Shown here: one piece after another, positions 24,296-42,821 of the stretch
Position numbering within the stretch: the stretch's first letter is position 1
Layout: each line of letters begins with the position of its first letter
Assembly (NCBI RefSeq): GCF_009660225.1
Contig: NZ_CP045920.1
Location: 1,922,001-1,986,000, forward strand
Direction of reading: 5' to 3'
Source of the DNA: Pseudactinotalea sp. HY158
Lineage (GTDB): Bacteria > Actinomycetota > Actinomycetes > Actinomycetales > Beutenbergiaceae
Length of the DNA: 64,000 nucleotides
Program-made: the position numbers and the translations under genes
Notes under the pieces: generated by a model
What the model saw: only the letters and a program-made list of their open reading frames with translations
What the model was told of the DNA's origin: nothing
Database searches by the model: none

Positions 24296-25711
24296 CTACA
24301 GATTGCTGGCGGACGCCTTCGGCCTGGCATCGATCCACTCCGCTCGTAGATCGAAACCGGTCTCCCTCGCCGCCGAGGCCGTGCGTTTCGGAAGGTCTTT
24401 GGTGCGACTGACAGATACTGGCCTGTCGTCATATCGGACGGCGAGGAACCAGCCGAAGCCGCACTGGTCTGAGGTCAGGTACGAGGTCAGCTGCTTCTCG
24501 AGCCCATCCCAGTAGTCGTTGTTCGTCATCTTCTTGATCTCGAGCAGCACTCGCTCGAAGGCCGACCTAGTAAACGCGAAGTCGACGGGCCCCTTGCCGA
24601 GGTACACCTCGCGGTCGACGCGCACGCCGTTGGCCAGGCAGTAGTACTGCACGATGCCCTTGAAGAGGAGCTGGACCGACACCTCATGCTTGGGCTTGTT
24701 GGTGTCGTCGTTGTAGAGCAGGGACCAGCCACGCTCGTGCTCAATGTAGCGCTTGAACGTTGCGACCACTCTGCCCATGAAGTCGTGGACCGATTCGCCG
24801 TCTTGGGCGCTGATCGGGTGGGAGGAGACGAATCTCGCCGCGAGCCTGTTCCAGTTGTGGAAGCCCTTCGGGTCTCGGTCGACGTCATACGGCCGTGCCG
24901 CTTGCCCCTCCCGGTCCTTTGTCCACTCTCGGATGAGTTCCGCCCGTGTGCGTGCGAGCCTGACGATCTCCTTGGAGTTGACGTTCTCCATCACCGTGAG
25001 GTTCAGGTCGTCGCGGAGCGTGGTCTCGCTGTAGTCGAACCAATCGTCGGGGTTCAGCGTCGGCAGCTCTCGCAGAAACCGCTTCGGGACCAGGAGCACT
25101 GCCTTGCCCGTGAACGGGTTTCGGGGTAGGTCGAAGGTTCCTGTGACCCAGCGCTTTCTCATCGGCTCGTAGACCGAGTTGGCTACCTCCAGCGGCTGGA
25201 GCTCCAGTCCGAGTTCGCCCGCGATCTTCTGCGTGTACTCGATGAACCGATGCTTCAGGATCGACAAGGTCATGTCAGAGATCCGATCCCTGTTAATCCG
25301 CTCCACGAGTACGCCCAGCTCCTCGAAGTGCGCCATCCCCTTGTCCAGACCGCGCTTCACCGCCTCTCGTATCGCCTCCGTGATCTGCTTCGCCAGGCCG
25401 GTACCGGCACCAGCCCCGCTCGTGCCGGTTGCGACGTAGCCCAGGCAGAACTCCTCCGGTTCGTGGAATTCCATCAACCCGACGACTCGCTTGTACTGCA
25501 GGCTGCTCCGGTTGTCCTCGTGCCCTGACAGCAACTTGAAGGCCCGGTCGAAGTAGCCGATCAGTTCCTGATGGGCGGTCGACCAGGGCCCGTCGGACTC
25601 CTTGAAGATCAGGAACGGATCGACGAACAGCCGTGTGTCCGTGTCGAGGATCGGGTCGAACCAGTCGTCTTCATCGTCGACGGCGATCTCGAAGTACTCG
25701 CTGAACTGCAC
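24296..25711 (-). CDS. PD-(D/E)XK nuclease-like defence-associated protein
   Basis: About 471 residues. The start is taken at the GTG at 25711 because GGAGG lies 8 bases upstream; the frame is open to a GTG nine codons earlier (25738). The N-terminus (WFDPILDTDTRLFVDPFLIF) and RDRISDMTLSILKHRFIEYTQ recur in hypothetical proteins of defence islands. Near residues 343-393 is a restriction-endonuclease-like core: Glu343 on a helix, then GPVDFAF with Asp377 and LLEIKK with Glu391 and Lys393. A metal-dependent DNA cleavage role is inferred. Its nearest neighbour is a divergent pair with an ImmA/IrrE protease. The family name is not known to me. Confidence 0.72.
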   Translation of the reverse strand: MQFSEYFEIAVDDEDDWFDPILDTDTRLFVDPFLIFKESDGPWSTAHQELIGYFDRAFKLLSGHEDNRSSLQYKRVVGLMEFHEPEEFCLGYVATGTSGAGAGTGLAKQITEAIREAVKRGLDKGMAHFEELGVLVERINRDRISDMTLSILKHRFIEYTQKIAGELGLELQPLEVANSVYEPMRKRWVTGTFDLPRNPFTGKAVLLVPKRFLRELPTLNPDDWFDYSETTLRDDLNLTVMENVNSKEIVRLARTRAELIREWTKDREGQAARPYDVDRDPKGFHNWNRLAARFVSSHPISAQDGESVHDFMGRVVATFKRYIEHERGWSLLYNDDTNKPKHEVSVQLLFKGIVQYYCLANGVRVDREVYLGKGPVDFAFTRSAFERVLLEIKKMTNNDYWDGLEKQLTSYLTSDQCGFGWFLAVRYDDRPVSVSRTKDLPKRTASAARETGFDLRAEWIDARPKASASNL

Positions 25712-25850
25712 CAGCCGTTCCTCCCGGGCGGACGGCACCGATCTGGTCGACCGATGCGCTCACGGTTGCATCCTACTTCATTTTGCCTCAAATGTGCGCA
25801 TGCCCCCTTCGCTCCACGCAGCTGGAACGCGAATGTGCTTTACTAGTTGC

Positions 25851-26591
25851 ATGGACCAAGCCCAGGTAGCAGCTCGAGAGACGCTGAACGAAGTCGCCGA
25901 CACGTGTACAGACAGCGGGCTCGTCGATGCCTGGCAGGCACTCGTGCAGGACGTCTACGCGAGCAACCTCGACAGGTTCGAGCCGAACGAACTCGGTGAC
26001 ACAGTGATGTCGTTCGGCATCCAGTGCTACGAGAACCTGAAGTCGCGGGCCCTCCGCAGGTTCCGGCATGACGATCTCGAGATCGCCGACGCGCACTGGG
26101 ACATCGACGGTCTCCGTGTGGGCACTCCCGGGAACGTGCTCACCTTCAACTTCGCAGGCGCGCGTTTCGTCACGATGAAGGTGCCGTTCTCGGAGGGCCG
26201 GTCTCCGAACTGGGACCGCAGCGGCGACTGGGATCAAGGCAGCCAGGTCAGGTCAGAGATCGCCACCGAGAACTCCAATGTGCTGCAGTACAAGACCCCT
26301 GCTCCCGGAGCGTCGCCGCTCTTCCCGCACCTGGGCTCGCCCGGAGATGTCCGCAGCTTCATGCTCCTCTGGGCCGGTGAGTCGAGCGCGGCCCTGACTG
26401 CTGGGTGGTTGGGCATTCCAATTCTCGGTGAGACACCGTTCATCGCCCACAAGCGGCTTTGGTACGACCTCGAACCAGACACGCTAGTCACGCAGAAGTC
26501 GACACCCGATCGTGGTCCGAGCTTCGACGAACGACCTGCAGCCCGACCCGCGGTCGCTCTCAAGGAGCAGCGCCGGGAAGGCCAGGCGTGA
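25851..26591 (+). CDS. Unknown protein paired with an XRE-ImmA/IrrE gene
   Basis: 246 residues from ATG 25851 (MDQAQVAARETLNEVADTCT). The frame is open further upstream, but the sequence there is antisense to the nuclease-like gene. No ribosome site is clear, so it may be leaderless. A helical N-terminal half (about 1-75) precedes a beta-rich part with GVLTFNFAGARF-like and LWAGESSAALTAGWLGIP stretches; no membrane segment or known motif is recognised. The stop overlaps the GTG start of the next gene by 4 bp (GTGA), implying coupled, balanced synthesis as in toxin-antitoxin or sensor-protease pairs. Role unknown; it could be the substrate or effector of the protease. Confidence 0.6.
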   Translation: MDQAQVAARETLNEVADTCTDSGLVDAWQALVQDVYASNLDRFEPNELGDTVMSFGIQCYENLKSRALRRFRHDDLEIADAHWDIDGLRVGTPGNVLTFNFAGARFVTMKVPFSEGRSPNWDRSGDWDQGSQVRSEIATENSNVLQYKTPAPGASPLFPHLGSPGDVRSFMLLWAGESSAALTAGWLGIPILGETPFIAHKRLWYDLEPDTLVTQKSTPDRGPSFDERPAARPAVALKEQRREGQA

Positions 26592-27688
26592 AGCGCACAT
26601 CGCAATTCCCCGCCGCTGGCACCGATTTCGACGGAACCCGCCTGACCGTCGCGAGGAGGCTGCGCCGCAAGACCAAGGCCACCCTCGCACGCGAGGTCGG
26701 AGTGACACCGACAGCCATCGGTCAATTCGAGAAGAACCTCTCGAACCCCACCCAGAGCGTCCTCGCTCAGCTCTGCCTTCAGCTCGGCCTCCCTCGAGAC
26801 TTCTTCGGCGCTGGCCGACCTCTCGCGCTGCTGCCGGCGTCCGGTGCCCATTTCCGATCGCTACGTTCGACGTCCGCCGCAGCACGAGAACAGGCCCTCG
26901 CCTACGGGGAGCTGTGCCTCGAGCTGGTGGACCTGATCGGGGCGTACGTCGACCTGCCTCCGGTGTCACTGCCCGAATTCGAGCTCCCGGAAGCACTATC
27001 CGACGACGACATCTTCGAAGCTGCTCGTCTCACGCGCGAGGCTTGGAGCATCGAGTCCGGGCCCGTAGCCTCCGTGGTCCAGGCCCTTGAAGCTCACGGT
27101 GTCATCGCCTTGCGCTTGCCTGCGCGGACCGATGCTGCCGTCGACGCGTTCTCCACCTACTCCGGTAGCCGACCGCTCGTCTTCCTCTCATCGGTCAAGG
27201 ACGACAAGGCCCGCAGCCGGTTCGACGCCGCTCACGAGCTCGGACACCTGGTCCTTCACCCCGACACCGAGCCAGGCTCGAAGCTGGTCGAGCAGGAGGC
27301 CAACCGATTCGCGGCAGAATTCCTCATGCCTCGCGACGAGATTATCGAGGACCTGCCACGCCGCATCGACTGGCCGAAATTTCACGATCTCAAGCGCCAC
27401 TGGGGTGTCAGTCTGCGAGCCCTGGTGTTCCGCGCCCACACTCTGGGCCGCCTCTCCGACGCCTCCTATCGGCGTGGCAATCAGCAGCTCTCCATCTGGG
27501 GCCTCCCCGAACCGGGTCCGCTCGGGCCCGCCGAGTCCCCGCAGGTGCTTGGTATTGCAAGGCAATTGATCACCGACAGCGGCTACGAGTTCGACGACGT
27601 CATGGCCGCCGGACGCGTCGCCCCGGAGGTCGCAGAAGCAGTGATGGACGCAGCTTCGACCGACCGACCGAAGTTGCGTTTCACCTAA
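26588..27688 (+). CDS. XRE-family HTH / ImmA-IrrE metallopeptidase
   Basis: 366 residues, GTG start at 26588 within the upstream stop. Residues 15-72 form a helix-turn-helix (TLAREVGVTPTAIGQFEKNLSNPT). Residues 165-250 are a zinc metallopeptidase of the ImmA/IrrE type, with HELGH at 216-220 and a downstream Glu-rich helix (EQEANRFAAEFLMP) giving the third ligand. Such COG2856-type proteins cleave a repressor or partner on a signal, as in ICEBs1 control or DNA-damage responses, and are frequent in defence islands. The C-terminal 70 residues are helical and uncharacterised. The preceding gene is the probable partner. Confidence 0.88.
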   Translation: MKRTSQFPAAGTDFDGTRLTVARRLRRKTKATLAREVGVTPTAIGQFEKNLSNPTQSVLAQLCLQLGLPRDFFGAGRPLALLPASGAHFRSLRSTSAAAREQALAYGELCLELVDLIGAYVDLPPVSLPEFELPEALSDDDIFEAARLTREAWSIESGPVASVVQALEAHGVIALRLPARTDAAVDAFSTYSGSRPLVFLSSVKDDKARSRFDAAHELGHLVLHPDTEPGSKLVEQEANRFAAEFLMPRDEIIEDLPRRIDWPKFHDLKRHWGVSLRALVFRAHTLGRLSDASYRRGNQQLSIWGLPEPGPLGPAESPQVLGIARQLITDSGYEFDDVMAAGRVAPEVAEAVMDAASTDRPKLRFT

Positions 27689-27705
27689 GAAGCGATTCCA
27701 TCTCG

Positions 27706-30519
27706 CTACGGTCGTTGGCGAATCTTCTCCAGCTTCGGGCGCTTTCCAATGGGGGTGACCCCGCGACGACTCTTAAGCAGGTTCTCGTCTTTCATGTTCT
27801 CCCGCACGGCCAAACGGCTCAGGATCCGTTGTTGCGACTCCGGGGTCCAGAAGACTCCGAGCCGGCGACGGGCTCGAGTGATCGCGGTGTAGAAGATGCT
27901 GTGAGAGATCCGCTCCTCGTTGGCGTCGGTGATGACGACCTTAACTGAGTCGTACTCGAGGCCTTGGGCCTTGTGGATCGAGACGGCGTATGCGATCTGG
28001 AACGGGACGAGCGTGTTCACGGTGTCGTCGTCTTCGTCAGTGTCACCGCGTTCGAAGACATCGAACTGTACGACTGATCCGCCGATCCACCGCAAGTCAC
28101 CTCCGAAGGAGAAGTCCGCACGCGAAAGGTCGCGCTCAAGATCGACGTCGAACGTGATTCTTCCGGGCACGCGCTCGATGGCGGCGATCTTGCCCTTGAG
28201 GTTGTTGAAGATGACCGGGCGGAACCGATCGGTCTCGCCGAAGAGCACCGGGTCGCCAACCTTGTAGATCGCCTCGCTCCAGGCGATCGGCGGGTTTGGG
28301 TTGCTTGCCTGCATGAAGCGATTGACGTTGTTGATGCCGTAGAGCCCGTCGTAGTTCAAGCAGAGCACGGTCTCGTCCGCGCTCTCCCGGTGGAAGAGCG
28401 AGCTGTCCAGCAAGCGCGAATAGCCGTTCTTGGAGAGCGACTCCTCGATCCGGTCGTCGAGGTGTCGGACCCGGTCCCAGAGAGTCAGCAGCGCTTCGTC
28501 GCTGGTGCGGAATGGCCTTGTGAGTTCGAACACCGCTTCCTCTGGAAGATATGCCCGCATGAGGGCGAACCAGTTGCCGAACTCTATGGACTCGATCTGG
28601 TAGACATCGCCCACGAGCACGAGCAAGTCGAAGTTGGTGTTCTCAAGCACTTTGAGCAGGCTTGCGTTGCTCAGCGTGCTGCACTCGTCGATCACCAACA
28701 TGTCGTACTTGAGGTCGTGAGGCGACGCGTTGTAGACGTGGCTGCTGACGGTGCTGAACTCCGAGTTCGGGACATCCACTCGAGCCATCAGGTTGTCGAC
28801 GGCCGGGTTCGTGTGCGCGAGGAATAGCTTCCTCTCCTCGTCGAAGTAGTTGGCGATATGGTTGACCATTGTCGACTTGCCCGTCCCTGCCGCGCCGTAG
28901 ACGATCGCGACCTTCGATCGTTCGAAGAGATTCCTGAGCGCTGTCGCTTTCAGCTCGTCGTCGATGGCCTCCGGGTTCGCGTCCAGCCATTGCTGCACGC
29001 CGGCTGCGTGGCCGCGGACTCCTTCGGCTGAGATCGACTGGAGCTTGTCGATGATCGCCACGGCGTCGTCCTCATAGCCGACGACGAAGATGTGGCCGAG
29101 CTCGTGTGCGAGCCGCCGGGGGGAATGCCTCTCGCCGGGTGGGAGCAGCCGGTTGTGATCGCGGATCAGTTCATCCACGTCACCGAGGTCCTCGAGTTCG
29201 GCGACCGGTGTGTAAATCTCACCGGCCTGCTCGACATTGTTCTTGACTCGGCGGGCGAGCAGTTCATGGTGCCGATCCGACGCGTCGATACTTTCAGCGA
29301 GGTCCTCGAATCGAGGGTTGTGCCGGCGCGGCGAAGTGCAGTAGGGCATTGTGTCGAATGGTCGGCAGCTCCAGGACGCGTAGAGGTTAGACAGGTACCG
29401 GCAGGGCTCGACATCGTACTGGTTCCTGATCACCTCGTTCCGCATTCGGAGCATCAAGTAGCGGAGCAACCGAGACCCCGGTCGGTCCGGTCTGATGATC
29501 GCGCGCGCTTGATCGAGCATCGCGAAGATCAGTGGCGGGCGCTGCGCGTTCGCGAGGACCAAGGCGCGGAGCTTGCTATAGGCAATTTCGGTCATGTCCA
29601 CGATGTCGAGGAGGCTCGATCGCATCGTGGTGAGGTATCGCATGAGATTGCGGTACTCCGTGTGGTTCGACCTGATTTGGTCTTCCAGCCCGAAAAGTCG
29701 CGCGAAGTTGTTCAACTCGCACGGCCGGATCGACACCTGCCAAGCCTGGATGAGCAGGATCGGCATCGTCTGGCCGAGCACCGTGATCGCGTCCCTCACC
29801 AGCTCAAGCTGGGCCGCGTACTTGTCGGTGACGTCGATGTCGGTGAAACCGATCGCCCGGTCGAACTTGCTGGTCCTGTTGTGGGCGAGGGAGAACGTCA
29901 CCTCGTAGTAGATACGGCCTCTGATGAAGAACGGCCGGGAACTATGGATGTAGTAACGCTCGCTCCTGCCGGACGAGGCCCCGGAGTCGCGCATCGAGCG
30001 GATGTGTTCCGCAATCTCCTGCTGGTATTCGCGCAATGACGGGTCCAGGTCCACGGGGAACCGCTCGAGGTCGGCGAGGATTTCAATGCCGACCTCACGC
30101 TGTGCGAGGTCGCGCGTCCGCAATAGGTACTCGTAGTACTTGAGCATCAGGCGCTCGGACGGGTCCACGTCCAGGGTGTAATGAGAGGCGCTGGCCTGCA
30201 GAAGGTCGTGAAACCGTCCGAGCAGTCTGAACCTCGCCGTCGCCTTGATTGTGTCCAGCGCCGCACCAACTTGGTCATAGTGGAACTCCGCTCCGCCATC
30301 GTTGCGGTGCGCCCAGACGGCCAGTCCTTCGACGAGGTTGCGCAGCTGGGCGAGCAGGTTTTGCGAGAGGAGCCCCCTGTCTCTGGTCCCGCTTACGAGA
30401 TTCCCGCAGATTGCGCCATCAGCGGCACGAACCTGCTGCTCCACTGTCGCCACTTGCGCCTCCCCATCTGCATGCCCATGCCCAAGCTCTCGGACATGCG
30501 ACGATTCGCCTTCCGACAT
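27706..30519 (-). CDS. Large SF1 (RecD/UvrD-like) helicase with unknown N-terminal half
   Basis: 937 residues. The C-terminal half is an SF1 helicase: Walker A GAAGTGKST (542-550), DECS (611-614), VGDVYQIE (636-643), LTRPFRTSD (motif IV, about 666-674), IHKAQGLEYD (motif V, about 848-857) and YTAITRARR (motif VI, about 877-885). Residues 1-500 are a mostly helical region I do not recognise; it contains an HELGH string at 472-476 that is probably coincidental. It is the last gene of the run hsdM-hsdS-hsdR-methylase-like-small frame-helicase. The start at 30519 lies inside the preceding small frame (127-bp overlap), so a later start is possible. A translocase role in restriction or phage defence is inferred. 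Confidence 0.85.
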   Translation of the reverse strand: MSEGESSHVRELGHGHADGEAQVATVEQQVRAADGAICGNLVSGTRDRGLLSQNLLAQLRNLVEGLAVWAHRNDGGAEFHYDQVGAALDTIKATARFRLLGRFHDLLQASASHYTLDVDPSERLMLKYYEYLLRTRDLAQREVGIEILADLERFPVDLDPSLREYQQEIAEHIRSMRDSGASSGRSERYYIHSSRPFFIRGRIYYEVTFSLAHNRTSKFDRAIGFTDIDVTDKYAAQLELVRDAITVLGQTMPILLIQAWQVSIRPCELNNFARLFGLEDQIRSNHTEYRNLMRYLTTMRSSLLDIVDMTEIAYSKLRALVLANAQRPPLIFAMLDQARAIIRPDRPGSRLLRYLMLRMRNEVIRNQYDVEPCRYLSNLYASWSCRPFDTMPYCTSPRRHNPRFEDLAESIDASDRHHELLARRVKNNVEQAGEIYTPVAELEDLGDVDELIRDHNRLLPPGERHSPRRLAHELGHIFVVGYEDDAVAIIDKLQSISAEGVRGHAAGVQQWLDANPEAIDDELKATALRNLFERSKVAIVYGAAGTGKSTMVNHIANYFDEERKLFLAHTNPAVDNLMARVDVPNSEFSTVSSHVYNASPHDLKYDMLVIDECSTLSNASLLKVLENTNFDLLVLVGDVYQIESIEFGNWFALMRAYLPEEAVFELTRPFRTSDEALLTLWDRVRHLDDRIEESLSKNGYSRLLDSSLFHRESADETVLCLNYDGLYGINNVNRFMQASNPNPPIAWSEAIYKVGDPVLFGETDRFRPVIFNNLKGKIAAIERVPGRITFDVDLERDLSRADFSFGGDLRWIGGSVVQFDVFERGDTDEDDDTVNTLVPFQIAYAVSIHKAQGLEYDSVKVVITDANEERISHSIFYTAITRARRRLGVFWTPESQQRILSRLAVRENMKDENLLKSRRGVTPIGKRPKLEKIRQRP

Positions 30520-30770
30520 GATCCTCGACAGCCATTCTGAACCATCACGACGTCTTTCGGAAGCAATTGTCGCCGATCCACGAGGCCTCTCGTGTGCAAT
30601 CTCGCCAAGTCGCGACGCCCCTGTGGTCCAGCCCGTACTGCACGCAGCACCGGCCAGCGAAGTTCAGCCAGAACGATGCCCCGCCACTCAGAGGAGGCGT
30701 GTCGAATCGCCTGGACCTCTGCGGGGTCGAGGCCGTCGCCGCGGAGGATCGCGTCGAGTGTCAGGGTCAT
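30393..30770 (-). CDS. Small frame resembling the N-terminus of a GIY-YIG protein (possibly truncated)
   Basis: 125 codons from an ATG at 30770 overlapping the methylase-like stop (ATGA). The first 25 residues (LDAILRGDGLDPAEVQAIRHA) resemble the N-terminal leader seen in some larger GIY-YIG nuclease proteins. The rest is Arg-rich and unlike any fold I know, and no GIY or YIG motif follows. It overlaps the helicase start by 127 bp in another frame, which points to a deletion or frameshift that cut a longer nuclease gene. Coupling suggests it is still translated. Confidence in function is low. Confidence 0.4.
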   Translation of the reverse strand: MTLTLDAILRGDGLDPAEVQAIRHASSEWRGIVLAELRWPVLRAVRAGPQGRRDLARLHTRGLVDRRQLLPKDVVMVQNGCRGSCRKANRRMSESLGMGMQMGRRKWRQWSSRFVPLMAQSAGIS

Positions 30771-33286
30771 TCCGACATCAGCGCCCCGAAGTCCGCGCGG
30801 AGGCTCTCTACGTCGTCTTGCAGCTCGGTCTCCGGTCCGTACTGGTAGCTGACCATCCGAACGTTCGTGCCCTCGGTACGGTTGTAGAAGTACGTGGTGA
30901 ACTGGGCGCTGCTCGGCGCGGCGCGGAGCTGCACGAAGTGTGGGAGAGGCAGTGGCGACTGGGAGCCGTCCCGGACGAGATACAACTCGTCATCGATCAT
31001 ATGCTCCCCGACGGCGAACTCCCGGGTCGCGAAAGGCGTGCGAGTCCCTACGGCAACTTCGGCGGTTTGGACGAGGCCGTCGCGACGGCGTTTGGCACTG
31101 CCGGGGCGGACCAGCAGTAGTTGTGCCCAGACGTTCCCGAGAATCCCGCGGAGTTCTCTAAGGTCCGAGGTGAGCGATTCGACTTGAGACCTCAGCTCCT
31201 GCTCCGAGGTATACCCAGTGTGGCCGGACCACCGGTTGCGCTTGCCGTTGAGCTCGTTGAACTTCTTGACGACGTCCTTCGAGATCAGCCGCTCGATTCC
31301 GGCGCGGCTGAGGCCGGCGAAAGCGCGGCGGACGCGGGCCACATCATCGGCGTCGCCGTCCTCGAGCGTGCTACGCATGTTCTTCGACGTCTTCTCGACA
31401 ATGACCACCCACGTGCCGAACGAGGCCTTCTCGATCCCCAGGCGCTGCTCATGAAGCGTCTGGCGGATCGTTGCCTCGGTCACGCTGCTACTACCCGGAT
31501 CCCTGCGACTCGCGGCCAGCAGGACGGTCGCGTGGAAGGTCACGATCGCTTCCCAGGCGTGAAGATATGCGCGCTGCTGCTCCCCCACCGAAGGCGCGGA
31601 CTCCGCGGTCCACAGCGCCGACGCAATCGGGTACGGCAAGTGATCGAGCCAGGACGTTAACGAGTCATCGAAGGCACCCGCGACCTTGCTTACCACCTCA
31701 TCAGCGTTCTCCGGCGAAGACCAGATGCTAGCGCGTCGGGTGCCGAGGTCGGCCTGAAAAGAGTTGAGCCGTTCGTCGGCGGACGCCAGCGCGAGCTGAA
31801 CGCTGAGATTCGGCACCGGCACGAGGAGATCGTCGGCCCACCTCATCAGTGAGTTCGCATCCGACCGCAGAGCCTTGAGGTGGTGGCCCGTGCTGCCATT
31901 TTCGATCGCGCGACGCCGACTGGCGACGCCTTGCTCCGAGTTGAGCCATGCCGCCAGGAAGGGAAGGTACACAGATTCGTTGTCGAGCTGGATCGCCAGG
32001 ACCCGCCCGCCTGCGTTCGTCTCGGACAGGTCAGTGGCGGCTCGGCCGGCTCTGGTCGTGGGGACGAACAGGTGTCGTTCGCCGCGTGCGTCTGCCGAAT
32101 CCGTCACCGACTCGGGCTCTTGTGCGAGAAGACTGCTCAGACGTCGAGTTGCCCAGCCCTTCTCGCCCATCTCTCGGAGCAATTCGCGCGAGTCGTCCCC
32201 GAAGATTCGGCCGGGATCGAGATCGACGGTCACTCGCGGCTCCTCGGACAAGGAGACGCCGGAGTCCTTGCCGTAACGGGTCTCCAGGAACCGGCCGTCG
32301 ATCGCTGTGTCGTCGTACGTGGCGACGCGCCACGAAAGCTGATTTCCTTCGCTCGTGGTGCGCGACAGCCGTGCGTCCCTGCGAGTGAACTGGCGGATGC
32401 TGATGCTGCGATTGCGGGGCCCCGGTTTGTGCATCCTCAGCCCGGACTCGAGTTCGTGGAAGGCTTCGACCGGGATCGACCTGCGACGGTTCTCTGTGGT
32501 GAACATCGTCTGTAGATCCGCGATCATCGCTTTGCCGCGTCTGACGTCCTCGGTCTTGTTCGAGAAGGTCAGGAGGTACAGGGGGATCGCCGTGTTTGGC
32601 GCGAGGCCATCTGGCAGCCGGGTGACCGACTCCAGCAAGCCTGCGTCGACGATCCGCTGCCGCACGGCTGCAGTTGCTCCGCCCGAGCTGAGTGCGCCCG
32701 GGTTCACCAATGCTGCGACACGTCCTCCACCCTCCTCTGCTTGGCGGAGTTTCTCGAGGGCCAAGGAGATGAACAACCAAGTGCTATCGGAGCGCTGAGG
32801 GAGGCCGAATCCGAACTCGCCGCGATCTTGCCGTGCTTCCACAGCCGCAGCGGAGCTTCGCCAGTCCATCCCCCAGGGCGCGTCGACGATCGCCAGGTCG
32901 GCGCTGAAGTCCTCGAAAGCGTCGCGCGCCAGTGTGTCCGCGTGGGCGATTTCCACGTCGGGGACTGCCTTGAATCGACGAACGCTGGCGGACACGGCGG
33001 CTTCGTAGATGTCCTGGCCGCGGTAGCGGACCCGCACTCCCGACGACCGGAGCGCGTCTACGAGGAGGAGACCCGCGAACCCCAGACCCGCCGCAGGATC
33101 CCAGACATCGACGGTCGTCAGGCCCGGATTGAGGCGGCTGAGGCAGCCTATTGCTAGAGCCCGGGCCAAGGACACGCTCGTCGCGTGCTCCAGGCCGACT
33201 GGGCCACGGTCCGTGTCGGAGTAGGGCACGGAGTCGGATTCCTGGAGTGCCCTGCGAATCGCCGGGTGCGGAGGATTCTTCGCCAT
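30767..33286 (-). CDS. N6-adenine methylase-like protein with degenerate motif IV and HsdS-like region
   Basis: 839 residues. Residues 30-245 follow the HsdM fold: motif I DPAAGLGF (63-70), RLPDGLAPNTAIPLYLLTFSN (about 223-243). The catalytic motif IV, normally (N/D/S)PP(Y/F/W), reads DAPW (135-138), so methylation may be lost or altered. Around residues 415-520 is a stretch like an HsdS target-recognition half (FLAAWLNSEQG, GSTGHHLKALRS, LVPVPNLSVQLALASADERL). A helical C-terminal part of about 280 residues is unknown. The gene starts 3 bp after the hsdR stop, so it belongs to the Type I operon. It may be a DNA-recognition or modification-sensing subunit working with the helicase. Confidence 0.8.
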   Translation of the reverse strand: MAKNPPHPAIRRALQESDSVPYSDTDRGPVGLEHATSVSLARALAIGCLSRLNPGLTTVDVWDPAAGLGFAGLLLVDALRSSGVRVRYRGQDIYEAAVSASVRRFKAVPDVEIAHADTLARDAFEDFSADLAIVDAPWGMDWRSSAAAVEARQDRGEFGFGLPQRSDSTWLFISLALEKLRQAEEGGGRVAALVNPGALSSGGATAAVRQRIVDAGLLESVTRLPDGLAPNTAIPLYLLTFSNKTEDVRRGKAMIADLQTMFTTENRRRSIPVEAFHELESGLRMHKPGPRNRSISIRQFTRRDARLSRTTSEGNQLSWRVATYDDTAIDGRFLETRYGKDSGVSLSEEPRVTVDLDPGRIFGDDSRELLREMGEKGWATRRLSSLLAQEPESVTDSADARGERHLFVPTTRAGRAATDLSETNAGGRVLAIQLDNESVYLPFLAAWLNSEQGVASRRRAIENGSTGHHLKALRSDANSLMRWADDLLVPVPNLSVQLALASADERLNSFQADLGTRRASIWSSPENADEVVSKVAGAFDDSLTSWLDHLPYPIASALWTAESAPSVGEQQRAYLHAWEAIVTFHATVLLAASRRDPGSSSVTEATIRQTLHEQRLGIEKASFGTWVVIVEKTSKNMRSTLEDGDADDVARVRRAFAGLSRAGIERLISKDVVKKFNELNGKRNRWSGHTGYTSEQELRSQVESLTSDLRELRGILGNVWAQLLLVRPGSAKRRRDGLVQTAEVAVGTRTPFATREFAVGEHMIDDELYLVRDGSQSPLPLPHFVQLRAAPSSAQFTTYFYNRTEGTNVRMVSYQYGPETELQDDVESLRADFGALMSE

Positions 33287-33289
33287 CGC

Positions 33290-36200
33290 CTACTCGCCCT
33301 CGCCGGATGCCACGCCGTCTTCCGAATCCGTCTCATCGTCGGTCATCCGCATTCGGCGAGATTGGTACAGGTACTGGCCGATCAGGCGGATGAACTCGTC
33401 GGCCCGACCGTTCTCACCGGTCAGTGCGCCGGTGAGCTTGCCGAAGGCTCCTTCGTTGAGCACTGCTGCGTCGGTCAGGATCTCCCGCAGTTCAGGCGAT
33501 GCCATGAACTGGTCGAGCGCGTTGTGATCGATCTGGTCGGCGACGCGCGGGTCTTCTTCCGCCATCCCGGCGGCGGCAACGACAAAGCCCTGGATCTGGG
33601 GATCTGCAAACTCCGCGCCGAACAACGCGTTGATCCTGGCTACGATTTCTGAGAGCAGTTCCTGCTGCGGGTCTTGCCGTGACACGTGGGAACCAACACC
33701 GGTAATCCCGGGCAGTGCCGGGGTGTCCTGGTCACCAGACAGACCAATGTCGGCCTTGCCCTGATCGATCTGCCGGACTTGGCGCAGCTCGAGCCCGGAC
33801 ACGTCGACATCGACCGCGCTGTCGTCTGTCGGCAGCAGCCTGGTGAGCTGGCGCAGGAACTCTGCGAGCTTCTCCAAGTCGCTGGTCCCGTAGTCGACAA
33901 CCTGGGACATGAAGTCGTACAGGCGCACGTACGATCCGCAGTCCTTCTTGAAGGTGCGCAGCTCGTCGCGAGCCTGAGAATCGTGCGACTCGGATGCCTT
34001 CGCCCAGCGGGCAATGTACTCATCCCGCGCCGGAGACACGGCCGCGGTCAGCGCACTGTGGGACTGCACCGGTGCCCACCATGCTTCGCCGTACCTTTCG
34101 ACGTCGGCGGGCGTGTAGATGCGCGCCTGGGCCAGTTTCGTCGCCAGCTGGTGCACGAGGTTCGGGTCGGTGGCCGTCTCGACATGGGCTGCCGTGTAGT
34201 ACTGCAGGAACGCCTCGCGGATCTCCTCGGGATCGTTGACGAAGTCGAGGACGAACGTGCGGTCCTTCAACTCACCCGACGGTGCACGATACGTCCTGTT
34301 CAGCCGCGAAAGCGTCTGCACCGCATGCACGTCGGGCAGCTTCTTGTCGACGTACATCGCGCACAGCAGCGGCTGGTCAAAGCCCGTCTGGAACTTGTCG
34401 GCCACCAGCATCAGCCGGTACTCGGGACGGCGGAACTCGCGTGCCAGGTCAGAGCCGAGGCCGGCGTTCATGCTCGCCTCGGTGGCGTCGACGAGCCCGT
34501 ATTCGTCGTCGCTGATCTTGTCGCTGAAGGCGACGATGGACTGGTAGCCGTAGCCCTTCTGCTTCAGGTACTTGTCCGTCTCGACCTTGTAGCGCACGGC
34601 CGCCTGGCGGGAGTCGGTGACGACCATGGCTTTGGCATGGCCATCGAGCAGGTGGGCGACGTTGGCGCGGAAGTGCTCGACGATGATCTCGACCTTCTGC
34701 CCGACGTTCGTCGGATGCAGCTTGGCGAAGCGAATGATCTGGCGCGTCGCCGCTTTCGAGTCCACCAGCTCGTCGTCGCCAGCGGTGATGCTGGTGACCA
34801 GGCCGTCGCCCGCATGCTGTTCGATCTCGAAGGCGGTCTTGTAGGACTGGTAGCCGCGCAGCACGTCGAGGATGAAGCCCTCCTCGATTGCCTGCCGCAT
34901 CGAGTACACATCGAACGACACGGGCTTGCCATGATCGTTGAAACGGCCGAACAGAGTCTTCGTCTTGGTCTTCGGCGTCGCGGTGAACGCCAGCAGCGAC
35001 ACGTTGCGGGCTCCAGCCCGCGCAGCGGTCTCGGCCGCGATCTTCCGCTCCCGGGCCACATCGGCCTCGACCACCTGGTTGACCACATCCTGGCTATCGA
35101 GCTCTTCTTGGTCAGTGACCTCTCCCCCATCGGTGAGGACCTTCTTCAGGTCGCCGGCGGTCTTGCCGGACTGCGACGTGTGCGCCTCGTCGATGATCAC
35201 TGCGAAGTTCTTGTCGCCCAGTGTCGTGTCCAGCAGTCCCTTGACGTAGGGGAAGGTCTGGATGGTGACGACGACGATGAGGGCAGAGCCGGTCAGGGCG
35301 TCGAGCAGCGCGCGCGATTTCGAGCCGCCGGAACGGCGCACGGCGGCGGAGTCGATGACGGCGACGGTGCCGACGGTGTCGTCGACCTGTTCGACGGCCT
35401 GCTGCAGCTGTGCGTCCAGGACGCGGCGATCGGAGACGATCAGGACTTTGTCGAAGGCCTTCTCGTTCGCCTGGTCGTGCAGGCGGGCCAGCCGGTGTGC
35501 CGTCCATGCGATGGTGTTGGTCTTGCCCGAGCCGGCCGAGTGCTCGATGAGGTACCGCTTGCCAGGTCCTTCCTCGGCGATGGCACGGACGAGCTTCGTC
35601 ACTGCGCGCCACTGGTGGTAGCGCGGGAACATCAGTGCCGTGGACCGCTTGATCCGACCAGTGGCCGGGTCCTCGTCGGTCTCGGTCTTCAGGAACATCT
35701 GCGATCCGAGGATCGCCAGCCACGTATCGCGCTGCAGCACCTGCTCCCACAGATACGAGGTCGCAGCGCCATTCGGGTTCGCAGGGTTGCCCGACGCGCC
35801 GGTATCGTCGTGACCGCGGTTGAACGGCAGGAAGTACGTCTTCTCGCCCGCAAGCTTGGTCGTCATGTGCACCTGGTCGTCGTCCACGGCGAAGTGCACG
35901 AGCGCGCGGGTGCCGAACCCGAGCAACGGCTGGCCGGCCGGGTTGCGGTCCTTGCGGTACTGGGTGACGGCGCTGCGCCACTCCTGCTTGAAGAACGACT
36001 TCAGCTCACAGGTTGCCACCGGGAGGCCGTTGACGAAGAACACCAGATCGATGGAACGCGAGTCCCCGCGCTTCGGGGAGAAGTGCACCTGGCGCACCAC
36101 GCGCAGGCGGACCTTGCCGTAGTGCTCGTTGACCTCGCGGTTCAGCGACGTGGCCGGCTTGAACTGACACATCCGTAGGTGCGCGGTCGCACCCCGAGTG

Positions 36201-36508
36201 TGGGAGAACTTGCGGCGCAGCACATTCAGCGTGCCGCCGCCCGAGCTCATCGGGGTGCCCAAACGGGACACGAGGGAAGCGAGCAGCGCTTCGCGGTCGG
36301 CGGCCTCGGCCCCGGTGCCCACGCGCACGACCTTGGCGTACTCGTCGGGCTGGGTCTCGCTCAACCACCAGTGCACGTCCTCGGGCCAGATCGCCTGCTC
36401 GGCGTCGTAGCCGTCGTCAGTTGGGCTGTACTCCCAGCCGTGTGCGGCCAGGTACTCGGCGATCTCGGTCTCGAACGCCTCCTCGCGTGTACCGTCTGGC
36501 GATGCCAT
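33290..36508 (-). CDS. hsdR: Type I restriction enzyme, R subunit
   Basis: 1072 residues. The N-terminal endonuclease domain has the PD-(D/E)XK pattern Asp154...Glu168-x-Lys170 (SIDLVFF, CELK). The SF2 translocase has Walker A HSAGSGKT (323-330), DEAH (440-443) and later motifs including LMLVADKFQTGFDQP and LSRLNRTY. A helical C-terminal region joins the MTase. HsdR moves DNA past the bound complex and cuts at a distance from unmodified sites. The start overlaps the hsdS stop by one base (TGATG). All key residues appear intact. Confidence 0.97.
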   Translation of the reverse strand: MASPDGTREEAFETEIAEYLAAHGWEYSPTDDGYDAEQAIWPEDVHWWLSETQPDEYAKVVRVGTGAEAADREALLASLVSRLGTPMSSGGGTLNVLRRKFSHTRGATAHLRMCQFKPATSLNREVNEHYGKVRLRVVRQVHFSPKRGDSRSIDLVFFVNGLPVATCELKSFFKQEWRSAVTQYRKDRNPAGQPLLGFGTRALVHFAVDDDQVHMTTKLAGEKTYFLPFNRGHDDTGASGNPANPNGAATSYLWEQVLQRDTWLAILGSQMFLKTETDEDPATGRIKRSTALMFPRYHQWRAVTKLVRAIAEEGPGKRYLIEHSAGSGKTNTIAWTAHRLARLHDQANEKAFDKVLIVSDRRVLDAQLQQAVEQVDDTVGTVAVIDSAAVRRSGGSKSRALLDALTGSALIVVVTIQTFPYVKGLLDTTLGDKNFAVIIDEAHTSQSGKTAGDLKKVLTDGGEVTDQEELDSQDVVNQVVEADVARERKIAAETAARAGARNVSLLAFTATPKTKTKTLFGRFNDHGKPVSFDVYSMRQAIEEGFILDVLRGYQSYKTAFEIEQHAGDGLVTSITAGDDELVDSKAATRQIIRFAKLHPTNVGQKVEIIVEHFRANVAHLLDGHAKAMVVTDSRQAAVRYKVETDKYLKQKGYGYQSIVAFSDKISDDEYGLVDATEASMNAGLGSDLAREFRRPEYRLMLVADKFQTGFDQPLLCAMYVDKKLPDVHAVQTLSRLNRTYRAPSGELKDRTFVLDFVNDPEEIREAFLQYYTAAHVETATDPNLVHQLATKLAQARIYTPADVERYGEAWWAPVQSHSALTAAVSPARDEYIARWAKASESHDSQARDELRTFKKDCGSYVRLYDFMSQVVDYGTSDLEKLAEFLRQLTRLLPTDDSAVDVDVSGLELRQVRQIDQGKADIGLSGDQDTPALPGITGVGSHVSRQDPQQELLSEIVARINALFGAEFADPQIQGFVVAAAGMAEEDPRVADQIDHNALDQFMASPELREILTDAAVLNEGAFGKLTGALTGENGRADEFIRLIGQYLYQSRRMRMTDDETDSEDGVASGEGE

Positions 36509-37812
36509 CAGACTCGGGCCCCCTTCTTGGCAGTGCGAACGTCGAATTGCCCTGTGACCGCGGCAGTGATCAATGCCGAGCGACGTTCCTTCGCTAGAGC
36601 GACGTGTCCTTCGGCCTTGGAAATGAGGGTGTCGATCTGCCTTTTCTGCTCATTAATGTGCTTGACGATGGCGAGTTGCTCCTCGATGGGCGGGAGGGGC
36701 AACACGATAGTCCGAATATCGGCAGCTGATACTTTATAAGTTCCCACAGTCGTCCGGGCCAGTAGCTCGATTTGATTTCGACTCGCGGGAGATTCAAATG
36801 CTTCCACGAAAAACTCGGGAAGCATGCTAAGACCAGTGCGGATACGCATTAGGAGATCGGGATAGATGTACTCCTCACTGTCGAACCCATTGCCGACCAG
36901 ACCAGCCCGGCCAACCAAGCGGATGTTGCCGTTACCGCGGACAATGAGCACGTCGCCAGAGACGAGTCGCAGGCGTGGAATATCCCTCACCGCAGAGCGG
37001 TCAATGAACTTCGTGACATCATCGGAAAGCACTACCTGACCGTTGCGAACCGCGCCGATGGACAACGAGCGCAGGTCACCAACACGTCCAGCCTCAGGCG
37101 AAACTCCATTGGACGGCCCAAACGCAAGCACACGTCGTGTGGGAACAGCGCGCCAACCATCCGGTAGTTCCGGAAGGAAGGCGCTTTCTGTCACTTCGAT
37201 GCTCTGGCCGGCGATAGGACCATTAGTTAGCGCGTTGTCACGGAGTGCGGATCTCCGCTCCCGGAGCAGCCCGATAAACTCCTCCTGTTTGGCCACGAGC
37301 GCGTCGATCTGGGCCGTCTCCTGGTCCAAGTAGTCGGCGATGGCGTGCTGCTCGTCGAGGGGAGGGACCCCGAAAGGCATGTCCGCGATCATGTGCCTCC
37401 GTACGGAGTCCACGGTCGATTTGGCGCTGCCGTCGAGCGCCATCAAGTGGAACATGCTCTTGAAGGCATAGAAGAAGAACTCGGGCGTCACCCCGCGAAA
37501 GTCGTGAAGCACGTACACGCGCTGATGAGCCATGAACTTGCCCGATACCAAGTGGAAGACCTTAGCAACCCCGGCACCGTCGCCTGCGGTGAGAACTGCC
37601 GTGGTATCGAACTCCCATCCAGATGACCTCAACGGTGAGTCCGAACGAACATAGAACGGGAACTCCCCAATCTCGTCGGCATCCACGGTGTCACCTGAAC
37701 CGGTATGGATCTTGATTAGGTGCCGTCCACGCACGACGCGCCAGTGAGCGGGCAACTTGTCGAAGGTCGGCGAGTCGTAGGACTGGTATGACGGGTATCG
37801 CGCGTTGCTCAC
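36508..37812 (-). CDS. hsdS: Type I restriction-modification specificity subunit S
   Basis: 434 residues with two target-recognition domains (about 20-150 and 215-370), each followed by a conserved helix (PPLDEQHAIADYLDQETAQID and PPIEEQLAIVKHINEQKRQID) that sets the spacing of the bipartite DNA target. Specificity cannot be predicted by eye. The start overlaps the hsdM stop by 4 bp (ATGA). The second recognition domain is visibly more AT-rich than its surroundings, as expected from domain swapping. No inverted second copy or recombinase is present, so no phase variation is evident. Confidence 0.96.
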   Translation of the reverse strand: MSNARYPSYQSYDSPTFDKLPAHWRVVRGRHLIKIHTGSGDTVDADEIGEFPFYVRSDSPLRSSGWEFDTTAVLTAGDGAGVAKVFHLVSGKFMAHQRVYVLHDFRGVTPEFFFYAFKSMFHLMALDGSAKSTVDSVRRHMIADMPFGVPPLDEQHAIADYLDQETAQIDALVAKQEEFIGLLRERRSALRDNALTNGPIAGQSIEVTESAFLPELPDGWRAVPTRRVLAFGPSNGVSPEAGRVGDLRSLSIGAVRNGQVVLSDDVTKFIDRSAVRDIPRLRLVSGDVLIVRGNGNIRLVGRAGLVGNGFDSEEYIYPDLLMRIRTGLSMLPEFFVEAFESPASRNQIELLARTTVGTYKVSAADIRTIVLPLPPIEEQLAIVKHINEQKRQIDTLISKAEGHVALAKERRSALITAAVTGQFDVRTAKKGARV

Positions 37813-39815
37813 GCCTCCACCTCGCGCAGTAGCCCCATGATCTCGCCGACGACTCGTTCGAGGTCGGCGTCGATCTCGGCCAGCGGTCGAGGTGGTTCAT
37901 AGGTGTAGAAGTGTCGGGTGAACGGGATCTCGTAGCCAGTCTTCGTCTTGTCCCAATCAATCCAGGCATCGTCGACATGGGGCTTCACTTCGGCGTCGAA
38001 GTACGCCTGCACTGTCTCTCTCAAGGCTTCGTGGGTCTTGGGGCGGCCGCCCCAGCCGAACGGGACGTTCTCGGTGTCGCGCAGCGCGGGGTCGGGCTCG
38101 ATCTCGCCCTTGTTCTTGCCAGTGGCGACGCGGCAGTAATCGGCGGTGTCGTCGTGGACGCCAATCGTCTGCCACAGCGTCTTGCGCTGCGCCGTGGTTA
38201 GGCTGACGCTGTGGTCACCGAGGTGCTTGCCGATGGCCTTGTTGAACTTCTCGCGGTTCAGGTAGGCCTCGTCGCCGAACGCTTCGAGCGCGTTTACAAG
38301 GCCCTCGACCTTGCCGAGCTTCTTGTGCTCGGCCACAGCGCTGATCGCCTCCGGCGTGCATTGGAAGCGCAATTGAAGCGGGCGTTCGACGGTGATGGTC
38401 CAGTAGGCGAAGTCTCGGTTGGAGAACACCTTTACCGGAACATCAGGATTGTCATCTTCGGCTTGGGTGCCAGCGAAAGCCTGCACGATACGGTCGCGGT
38501 CAGCCTCCGAGACCTCGACGCGCTTGGAGCCGATGGACTTGCGCAGCTTCGAGCCGAGACCGGTGGCGTCGATGAGCTGGATCTTGCCCTTGCGCTCGTC
38601 GGACTTTGCGTTCGACAGGATCCATAGGTAGGTGGCGATGCCGGTGTTGTAGAACATGTCGTTCGGCAACGCGACGATCGCCTCGACAAGGTCGTTCTCC
38701 AGCATGTGGCCGCGGATTTCGGACGGCCCCGATCCCGCGCCGCCGTTGAATAGCGGGGAGCCGTTGAGGACGATGCCGGCCTTGCCGCCGCGCCCGGTCT
38801 CGTCGACGTCGCGCATCTTCGACGCAACATGCAGCAGGAACAGCATCGCCGCATCGCCGACGGCGGGCAGGCCCGGTGCGAAGCGGCACTGGCCGCCGCG
38901 GGCGTGTTCGTTCTTCACGTCGGATTCGACGGCTTTCCAGTCGGTGCCGAACGGAGGGTTCGAGAGCACGTAGTCGAAGCGCAGGTCCTCGAATCGGTCC
39001 ACGACCAGGGTGTCGCCCTGGCGGACGTTGGACGGATCCTGGCCCTTGATGAGCAGGTCGGCCTTGCAGATGGCGTAGGTGCGGGGATTGATCTCCTGGC
39101 CGAACAGCGCGGTCGACGCGCCGGGGTTGAGGTCATGTAGGTGCTCGTCGGCGACGGTGAGCATGCCGCCGGTGCCGACCGTCGGGTCGTAGATCGAGCG
39201 CACGGTGCCGCGCTCGCGCAGCGCGTCGGTGTCCTCGTCGTAGATCAGGTCGACCAGCAAGCGCACCACGTCGCGGGGCGTGTAGAACTGTCCCGCGCCG
39301 TCGTTGGCGGACTCGGCGAAGCGGTAGATGAGGTTCTCGAACAGGTCACCCATGTCGGCATTGGACACAGCTGCCGGGGACATGTCGATCTTCTCGAAGT
39401 GGCGGGTCACCTGGGCCAGCCGGTCACGCGTATCGAGGGTGCGGATGATGTTCTCGAAGTTGAAGGACTTGAACACGTCCAGGTTCGCGGAGAAACCGCC
39501 GACGTAGTCGATCAGGTTCGGGGCCAAGTTATCCGGGTCCTGCAGAGCTCTCTTCAAGGTGTAGTTGCTGGTCGTCCAGAAGGACAAACCAGCGCTATCG
39601 TCGCTCCGTGTCCGCAGCTTCAGATGCGTGCGCCGCTGCTGCTCACCCTCGTGCTTCCCGACGATCTCGGCCATGACTTCGCGGTGCGGCTCCATCACGC
39701 ACTCGAGGCGTCGCAACACGGTTAAGGGAAGAATGACCGAACCGTACTCGGCCTCGCTGTAGGGGCCCCGGAGCGTGTCGGCGACACTCCACACGAAGCT
39801 GGAAAGGACTGACAC
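37809..39815 (-). CDS. hsdM: Type I restriction-modification methyltransferase subunit M
   Basis: 668 residues, GTG start at 39815. The N-terminal HsdM helical domain (1-150) precedes the N6-adenine methylase: QFYTPR (176-181), motif I DPTVGTGG (210-217) and motif IV NPPF (286-289), all intact. With HsdS it methylates both strands of the recognition site. It is first in the operon. The 150-bp stretch upstream, which carries its promoter, is AT-rich (for example gaattcggtttgg), and the next gene upstream on the same strand is a small XRE regulator. Confidence 0.97.
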   Translation of the reverse strand: MSVLSSFVWSVADTLRGPYSEAEYGSVILPLTVLRRLECVMEPHREVMAEIVGKHEGEQQRRTHLKLRTRSDDSAGLSFWTTSNYTLKRALQDPDNLAPNLIDYVGGFSANLDVFKSFNFENIIRTLDTRDRLAQVTRHFEKIDMSPAAVSNADMGDLFENLIYRFAESANDGAGQFYTPRDVVRLLVDLIYDEDTDALRERGTVRSIYDPTVGTGGMLTVADEHLHDLNPGASTALFGQEINPRTYAICKADLLIKGQDPSNVRQGDTLVVDRFEDLRFDYVLSNPPFGTDWKAVESDVKNEHARGGQCRFAPGLPAVGDAAMLFLLHVASKMRDVDETGRGGKAGIVLNGSPLFNGGAGSGPSEIRGHMLENDLVEAIVALPNDMFYNTGIATYLWILSNAKSDERKGKIQLIDATGLGSKLRKSIGSKRVEVSEADRDRIVQAFAGTQAEDDNPDVPVKVFSNRDFAYWTITVERPLQLRFQCTPEAISAVAEHKKLGKVEGLVNALEAFGDEAYLNREKFNKAIGKHLGDHSVSLTTAQRKTLWQTIGVHDDTADYCRVATGKNKGEIEPDPALRDTENVPFGWGGRPKTHEALRETVQAYFDAEVKPHVDDAWIDWDKTKTGYEIPFTRHFYTYEPPRPLAEIDADLERVVGEIMGLLREVEA

Positions 39816-42311: not shown

Positions 42312-42821
42312 GCCCGAGACGGCCGTCAGGTGGGTGAGGCTCGTGGTGCGCATCGCCTCCGCGATCCGGTCGGGCAGGGCCCGGTCCTCGCCGATCGCCA
42401 CGCCGGGAACGAGCCCGCGCGCGAAGGGCGGCAGGTCGGCCACCTGCCTGCGCAGGCCCTCCCGGAGGCGGTCGACGCGGGCATCCAGGGCCGTCATCGG
42501 GGCGACCACCTCGGGCGGGCCGGCGAGGTCCACCTCGCGCACCTCGACCGACACGCCGTAGCTGCCGGGCCTGCTCCGCAGCTCCCGCGGCTCCGCCGCG
42601 ATCCGGGCGTGTACGGTGCCCGAGACCCCCGCCAGCGGGGCCACGGCCCGCTCGCGGGCGATGACGGCGGCGCTGACGACCGCACCGCCGACGCTCGCGA
42701 TCACGCAGGCGAGCAGCACGGTCATCCGGCTCCAGCCCACCCAGGCGGGCCGGTGCCGGGCCCGGGGCGGGCGCGGCCGGGCCACGAGCCGCAGGTCGAC
42801 CGGGGTCAGCGCGACGGACAT
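42312..42821 (-). pseudogene. comEC: comEC 5' fragment
   Basis: 170 codons from an ATG at 42821 through THLTAVSG, then island sequence (NKKSS...) to a stop at 42228. It contains the N-terminal membrane helix (TVLLACVIASVGGAVVSA), the OB-fold-like DUF4131 part (GVSGTVHARIAAEP) and the beginning of the competence domain. The matching 3' half lies at 23024-23749. The native operon would read comEA-comEC-holA. A short membrane peptide could still be made, but channel function must be lost. Confidence 0.93.

Follow-up and report, generated by a model that had tools for sequence, protein, structure and literature searches.

When a type I restriction-modification operon is followed on its own strand by a methylase-like gene, a small frame and a helicase gene, do all of these belong to one defence system, and if they do not, what is the methylase-like protein for? 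This question is raised by a 64,000-nucleotide stretch of Pseudactinotalea sp. HY158 (positions 1922001-1986000 of NZ_CP045920.1, in a one-contig genome of 3.65 Mb), here called the window and numbered from its first letter. A preliminary description had joined hsdM, hsdS, hsdR, a methylase-like gene that we call X, a small frame and a superfamily 1 (SF1) helicase gene into an extended type I operon, a possible composite or back-up defence with a second recognition and translocation module. We found all six frames on the minus strand with the coordinates and spacings it gave, and its domain calls for HsdM, HsdS, HsdR, the methylase-like protein and the SF1 helicase agree with Pfam, PADLOC and NCBI profile matches (Table 1). 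However, the tight coupling embraces hsdM-hsdS-hsdR-X and leaves out the small frame and the helicase, so that the unit has four genes, not six. X combines a methylase domain that lacks the catalytic motif with a putative ribonuclease (RNase) domain of the HEPN superfamily.

X is a recurrent fourth gene of type I loci

By the defining domains of all three subunits, hsdM-hsdS-hsdR is a complete type I restriction-modification system. The nuclease (HSDR_N) and superfamily 2 motor domains of HsdR score over their cut-offs, and the whole-protein NCBI hsdR model stays below its own (184 versus 284.55 bits). The genes hsdM and hsdS overlap by 4 bp, hsdS and hsdR by 1 bp, and 3 bp separate hsdR from X; the four genes are probably co-transcribed.

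Full-length X was found in 3 of 297 genomes of the order, namely the window's own, G148 and G174, and the other 110 matching genomes match X, among the matches listed, in its methylase region. A profile of the C-terminal two-thirds of X matched 5 of 394 genomes of the class, one of them (G998) with a broken copy, and the C-terminal profile matched 1 of 371 in the phylum sample, the window's own. The related-locus search gave nine loci with X, and the plasmid set added one close relative, from Gordonia JH63. Two scans of viral contigs returned 22 and 14 pattern matches and no true relative of X. Thus X is infrequent and patchily distributed, a pattern that fits a mobile defence gene.

Close homologues of X are 64-84% identical, and they define 12 loci: the window, G148, L074, L075, L076/G174, L077, L078, L079, L080, L081, L082 and L090 (L009, L068 and L076 are one place in G174 and were counted once; G866, with L097 and L103, and L081 were merged likewise). 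A complete hsdMSR lies immediately upstream of X in nine of the 12 (the window, G148, L074, L076/G174, L077, L078, L079, L081 and L090). In L080, a 7.7-kb record, X follows an HsdR C-terminus at the contig edge, and in L075 and L082 it stands alone. Among seven loci other than the window, six have hsdR and X separated by 4-5 bp or overlapping by 4 bp, and L078 has a spacing of 231 bp. We conclude that the four-gene type I module with X is a real, recurrent gene arrangement. More distant relatives, of 26-31% identity, occur on three Streptomyces plasmids (L091; one identical protein) and in G779 and G965.

The association is not fixed to one kind of restriction system. In Microbacterium mangrovi (L078, 3102-12517) X is 75% identical to that of the window, while hsdM is 49% and hsdR 44% identical. 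Compared with the six loci of the main group, X of L078 is 72-78% identical and its HsdM and HsdR 44-51%; against the rest the values are 66-78% and 44-53%. These identities, together with the 231-bp gap, indicate that X moved between different hsdMSR systems or that hsdMSR was swapped beneath X. X is therefore seen with different hsdMSR types and also alone. On the Gordonia JH63 plasmid pJH63-1 (L090, 8992-11511), with hsdMSR upstream and a SIR2 gene downstream, X is annotated as two genes in one reading frame and so has an internal stop.

X has lost the catalytic motif of its methylase domain

Residues ~30-280 of X are an N6-methylase domain that can be aligned with HsdM, and Foldseek matches it to solved structures of type I and related N6 methylases (7vs4 1.3e-10, 3lkd 2.7e-10). 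The motif [DNS]PP[YFW] is the catalytic motif of active N6-adenine DNA methylases. We found it in 0 of 14 X sequences. At this position, motif IV, none of the 14 retains PP: the sequence is DAPW in 10, including the window, EIPY in two, and DSPW and DVPM in one each. HsdM proteins, in comparison, kept PP[FY] in 27 of 27 controls (L010-L036; 26 NPP[FY] and one EPPF), a set made up of the best partial X matches in the order sample and not drawn at random, and the window's own HsdM (L004) has NPPF. The stop-broken pieces of G998 and the split gene of L090 were excluded from the motif counts, and L002 and L003 yielded no alignment at motif IV. Motif I (WDPAxGxGFAG) is intact in the 11 close members and altered in the three distant ones.

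The preliminary description took the methylase-like protein and the helicase for a second recognition and translocation module. X could also be an active second N6-adenine methylase with a recognition domain of its own that adds a modification specificity. The confident methylase fold and the motif I of the close members favour this explanation, as does the middle of the protein, where residues 281-519 weakly resemble half an HsdS (hhalign P 2.5e-4, probability 43%; P 0.054 against a whole HsdS). However, motif IV has not only lost PP throughout but varies in type between members. Furthermore, the recognition-like region is 53-82% identical between loci compared with 17-84% for HsdS (21 pairs, 7 loci), so that X does not track the DNA target recognised by its HsdS. 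Since motif IV is lost in 14 of 14 sequences and the recognition-like region is not diversifying as HsdS does, a second modification activity of X is unlikely.

X carries a putative HEPN domain at its C-terminus

In a model of the C-terminal part of X, residues ~540-720 are helical and residues 721-839 are beta-rich and end in one helix. At the end of the penultimate helix lies the motif RNRWSGH. Its R683 and H689 are invariant in 13 of 13 aligned members, and in 14 of 14 when G148 is added, and the residue that follows R683 is N in 13 of the 14 and T in L105. The motif reads RNRWLGH in L078 and RNTWSGH, RNVWKGH or RTAGAH in distant members, and the broken fragment of G998 still retains RNRWTGH. 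HEPN RNases have the signature Rx4-6H with a polar residue, typically N, D or H, directly after the R (PMC3710099, section 6). The C-terminal motif of X fits both the signature and the polar residue.

We then compared regions of X by the ratio of non-synonymous to synonymous differences (pN/pS). In five of five pairs the HEPN-like region (0.12-0.17) was below the methylase (0.20-0.31) and recognition (0.24-0.33) regions, and in two of the five the C-terminal tail was lower still. The X of L075, which has no hsdMSR beside it, is likewise under purifying selection (overall pN/pS 0.20-0.21, two pairs). That the HEPN-like region is constrained more tightly than the methylase domain is a further point against an active methylase, and we regard that explanation as improbable.

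In none of the searches taken singly, for the four-helix HEPN fold or for a profile match, does the HEPN assignment reach significance. Pfam HEPN_Swt1 matched 2 of 13 X members with a best E of 0.047, and a rescan of five X sequences with it gave no match. Alignment of the X C-terminus to 12 HEPN_Swt1 domains with hhalign reached P 0.11 (local) and 0.21 (global), in the expected register. Foldseek with the C-terminal model, whose pLDDT is a modest 61, returned nothing below 0.001. With VIA-align, HEPN structures reached Z 6-7 (2hsb 7.0, 7ae6 6.2), and unrelated helical bundles and receptors scored as high or higher, no row rising above that background. A sequence search of the PDB with the C-terminal profile gave matches at chance level, E 0.84 and up. 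Finally, 34 columns are invariant in our alignment (A3), among them three R and two H, and from these numbers the chance of an R-H pair at such a spacing is, by a rough estimate, ~0.06. Weighing these results against the invariant motif, we consider that the C-terminal domain of X quite probably belongs to the HEPN superfamily.

A possible back-up role for X

When restriction is blocked, PrrC, a HEPN nuclease encoded with the restriction system PrrI, is set free (PMC3710099, section 10). A methylase scaffold without motif IV and a constrained HEPN-type motif, joined in one protein that accompanies a restriction system, point to a second defence line of this kind. We propose that X is a methylase-like sensor joined to a HEPN RNase effector and serves as a back-up behind type I restriction. 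The N6-methylase and recognition scaffold would dock on DNA, on the restriction complex or on both, and hold the HEPN domain silent. DNA that is sensed as foreign yet is not destroyed, or a complex that is jammed, for example by phage DNA-mimic inhibitors, would be the trigger, upon which the HEPN domain would cleave RNA and halt the cell. X would then do for its restriction system what PrrC does for PrrI, the ABC ATPase being replaced by a methylase-like sensor. For this mechanism in full we would claim an even chance.

X resembles PrrC in that a putative HEPN RNase is encoded with hsdMSR and offers a plausible second defence line. It differs in its front part, in gene order and in its distribution. 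PrrC, an anticodon nuclease of the HEPN kind that cleaves tRNA upon inhibition of restriction, belongs to a type Ic hsdMSR locus. Its N-terminal part is an ABC ATPase, where X has methylase-like and recognition-like regions; a Pfam search of X at E 0.1 gave N6_Mtase only and no ABC ATPase. The order here is M-S-R-X, and X also occurs without hsdMSR. Judged by its domains, X is not a PrrC. With HsdM and the gamma-class N6-adenine methylases X shares the methylase fold, an alignment over ~residues 53-265 and, in close members, motif I, yet unlike them it has lost NPP[FY] in 14 of 14 sequences and carries ~570 further residues with the HEPN-type motif.

A third comparison is with the DUF499-HEPN ATPases of BREX-related (Hma) systems, in which, too, a HEPN domain is joined to one component of a defence system that includes modification. 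According to part of a BREX survey (PMC12839542), HEPN domains fused to DUF499 ATPases are back-up effectors; unlike X, these systems join HEPN to an AAA+ ATPase and encode the methylase separately (PMC12839542; PMC3710099, section 10). Section 10 of the 2013 HEPN survey states that HEPN domains linked to restriction-modification systems fuse to restriction nucleases, helicases and ATPases only, not to methylases (PMC3710099). A HEPN-methylase fusion accompanying hsdMSR is described neither in sections 6 and 10 of that survey nor in the portion covered of PMC12839542, bioRxiv and most subscription journals being outside the search.

Other observations count against the proposed back-up function, or against parts of it. 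In the genomes of L075 and L082 a search with HsdR, the one subunit of the three that was looked for, gave no match at E 0.001. No hsdMSR was found beside the distant relatives of X in stretches of 20 kb, 20 kb and 6.8 kb (Streptomyces plasmids, G779 and G965); in G779 an HsdR, 39% identical, is located on another contig than the X relative. Because X occurs without an HsdR match in two genomes and without adjacent hsdMSR in its distant relatives, a role as obligate guard of this HsdMSR is excluded. In addition, DAPW might still permit methylation, and the AlphaFold model of the entire protein has a pLDDT of 45.

These same loci bear on another explanation, namely that X acts on its own in abortive infection or restriction and merely hitch-hikes behind hsdMSR through shared defence islands. 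The intact X of L075 and L082, the relatives on Streptomyces plasmids (L091) and in G779 and G965, and the high identity of the L078 protein to the main group despite its divergent HsdM and HsdR are all as this explanation predicts. However, a position immediately behind a complete hsdMSR in nine of 12 close loci, with a spacing of mostly 3-5 bp, is not, and we consider a stand-alone factor rather unlikely. Since X is also found without hsdMSR, it must have a sensing capacity of its own, most simply for DNA by way of its methylase and recognition part. A back-up defence, as the preliminary description had it, is plausible for X, a regular companion of this hsdMSR type; a place for the helicase in the same composite system is not supported.

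The helicase belongs to a separate candidate family

The RecD-like SF1 helicase matches the PADLOC profile PDC-S53 over its full length (profile positions 3-896 of 900). We found no difference between the two, and by profile the protein is a member of this separate, already catalogued candidate family. A match to a named defence system was among the findings that the preliminary description itself had set against its reading. We take the PDC-S label to mean a single-gene defence candidate. We found no paper on PDC-S53, again with bioRxiv and most subscription journals outside the literature search.

The helicase had been described as a 937-residue protein beginning at ATG 30519. Matches of six intact actinobacterial homologues (L069-L072, L084, L092) start at residues 13-23 of this long frame, and the starts called for L070 and L072 and annotated for L092 correspond to residue 23. 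GGGGAGG sits 5 nt upstream of GTG 30453. The homologues and this site favour a protein of 915 residues, and the start is very probably GTG 30453, which leaves a gap of 313 bp to the end of X.

The PDC-S53 profile matched 141 of 297 genomes of the order at E 0.001. The match is full-length in six, the window's own, G001, G177, G197, G277 and G238 (in two pieces), and the remainder are partial helicase matches of ~50 bits or less. In the phylum sample 3 of 396 genomes reached 1e-60 (the window's own, G001 and G304). Six plasmid records have relatives that cover at least 80% of the helicase; identity is 42-71% in Rhodococcus, Arthrobacter (two frames), Sporosarcina, Phocaeicola and Lactiplantibacillus and 26% in Mesomycoplasma.

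A further explanation makes the six frames one composite operon, with the SF1 helicase as a second translocation module. The common strand and adjacency of the frames in the window agree with this, and other type I systems precede PDC-S53 in G001 and G238. However, full-length X and full-length PDC-S53 coincide, among the 297 genomes, in that of the window only, and no other genome examined has both. At 1e-30 PDC-S53 was found in none of 12 further X-carrying genomes or records (two of them plasmid records only), and the profile does give matches in other samples. No helicase was found in the stretches read of the other 11 close X loci; the genome-wide search covered eight of these 11, along with the L090 plasmid and G148, and L080 is a record of 7.7 kb. 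Moreover, the gap between X and the helicase holds a probable gene relic and a separate ribosome-binding site, and in 4 of 12 loci the helicase has a different neighbour, an XRE-M78 gene. A composite operon is highly improbable on these data, and a composite six-gene system is not supported.

The XRE-M78 gene (PADLOC RmrA type) stands tail to tail with the helicase in the window. It also adjoins the helicase in G277 (L071), in Arthrobacter Hiyo8 (L095) and in a broken copy in R. fascians (L123); in L095 the two genes are coupled and share a strand, and in the window they converge. The 12 helicase loci are the window, L069-L073, L084, L092-L095 and L123, with the helicase in pieces in L073, L095 and L123; fragments H36 and H38 and the low-identity H37 were excluded from the intact set, and H34 was not inspected. 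Decayed copies are two frames in G238 (L073) and pieces in R. fascians D188 (L123). A homologue of the PDC-M36A-like protein, 32% identical, adjoins the helicase in L071, and this gene is possibly part of the helicase-side module. No shared neighbour was recognised in helicase loci other than those with XRE-M78, PDC-M36A-like or type I neighbours. The PDC-S53 helicase, the XRE-M78 gene and the PDC-M36A-like gene (24296-30453) are possibly one unrecognised multi-gene system.

The small frame between X and the helicase

The small frame (30393-30770, minus strand) overlaps X by 4 bp and the helicase frame by 127 bp. Its first 25 residues are 60% identical (15/25) to the N-terminus of the L085 UzuA protein, with the same start methionine. 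We take UzuA to be a GIY-YIG protein. Beyond these 25 codons there is no convincing match, and the nuclease part of UzuA is absent. When two UzuA proteins were searched with tblastn against 28 loci and the window, the window gave E 0.002 and 0.089 and all others E 0.12 or worse. The small frame is probably no gene, and at most the 5' relic of a GIY-YIG (UzuA) gene.

The relic lies in the 313-bp gap before the GTG start of the helicase. Because the small frame starts within the stop of X (ATGA), the simplest history would be that X was once followed by a GIY-YIG gene, which was cut away later as the helicase side arrived. No GIY-YIG gene was found in the stretches examined of the other 11 close X loci. 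We rejected the idea that the small frame encodes an antitoxin or an adaptor of the helicase; the UzuA N-terminus was found in the window only. The 121-residue gene that precedes the R. erythropolis helicase (L092) has, by eye, a different sequence. A UzuA gene in G080 (L086, 2-2349) immediately precedes a different type I hsdM in the same orientation, which shows that genes of the UzuA type do accompany type I systems.

The surrounding island

GC content, in 2-kb steps, is 0.61-0.65 between ~24 and 42 kb of the window and 0.68-0.75 outside, and with this drop the whole stretch looks like an acquired island. The relatives of the window are actinobacteria. The best explanation of the locus is a pair of independent defence modules, neighbours within one island. 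A small XRE control-type regulator is encoded on the strand of hsdM, 151 bp upstream of it.

The low-GC island, 18.5 kb long, splits comEC, whose pieces are at 23048-23752 and ~42312-42821 on the minus strand. It is flanked on one side by a Competence domain (PF03772) whose stretch contains an internal stop. On the other side is a frame ending HLTAVSG, which we take to be the N-terminal part of ComEC and which adjoins a ComEA-like SLBB-HHH gene. No clear target duplication was found at the island. A strain with its comEC split in this way has probably lost DNA uptake.

Table 1. Coordinates in the window of the genes and motifs discussed, with the matches that identify them.
Feature	Position	Strand	Evidence
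PDC-M36A-like protein, 480 aa	24296..25738	-	PDLC04597 8.7e-34
XRE-HTH + M78 peptidase gene (PADLOC RmrA); true start may be further downstream	26459..27688	+	RmrA 7.6e-154, best stretch residues 50-408; Pfam Peptidase_M78 2.8e-18
RecD-like SF1 helicase, PADLOC candidate family PDC-S53; probable GTG start 30453 (915 aa), ORF to 30519	27706..30453	-	PDLC05035 1278 bits, residues 25-921
Probable relic of 5' end of GIY-YIG (UzuA-type) gene, 25 codons	30696..30770	-	UzuA model positions 1-28, E 0.0048
X, 839 aa, with methylase-like and recognition-like regions and a HEPN-like C-terminus; fourth gene in the type I module	30767..33286	-	N6_Mtase 2.7e-20, residues 107-269
HEPN-type motif RNRWSGH of X, residues 683-689	31220..31240	-	R and H invariant in aligned X sequences
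Motif IV position of X, DAPW in place of NPP[FY], residues 135-138	32873..32884	-	Alignment with X and HsdM sequences
hsdR, type I restriction/translocation subunit, 1072 aa	33290..36508	-	HSDR_N 1.4e-13, SWI2_SNF2 3.1e-23, T1R_D3-like 1.7e-10
hsdS, type I specificity subunit, 434 aa	36508..37812	-	Pfam Methylase_S 2.8e-11; PADLOC Specificity_I 1.3e-64
hsdM, type I modification subunit, 668 aa	37809..39815	-	Pfam N6_Mtase 1.1e-58, HsdM_N 3.7e-22; PADLOC MTase_I 813 bits
XRE control-type regulator, 69 aa	39967..40176	-	HTH_3 2.7e-15; PADLOC Control_protein 2e-14

Implications

If the HEPN reading holds, the arrangement of X is a new form of restriction-coupled HEPN effector. X would break the published rule that excludes methylases from the fusion partners of HEPN domains linked to restriction-modification systems. 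It would do so in form while agreeing with the argument of that survey, since the methylase part seems not to modify DNA any more. It is possible, although we would put it short of an even chance, that X founds a new class of restriction-coupled suicide RNases, in which a dead methylase and a recognition region trigger a HEPN RNase. The cell would then read phage DNA or a jammed restriction complex by means of a methylase fold and answer with RNA cleavage, and X would be a simple case of a methylase fold that serves as a sensor of foreign DNA. Genes annotated as 'N-6 DNA methylase' behind hsdR may accordingly be effectors rather than modification enzymes.

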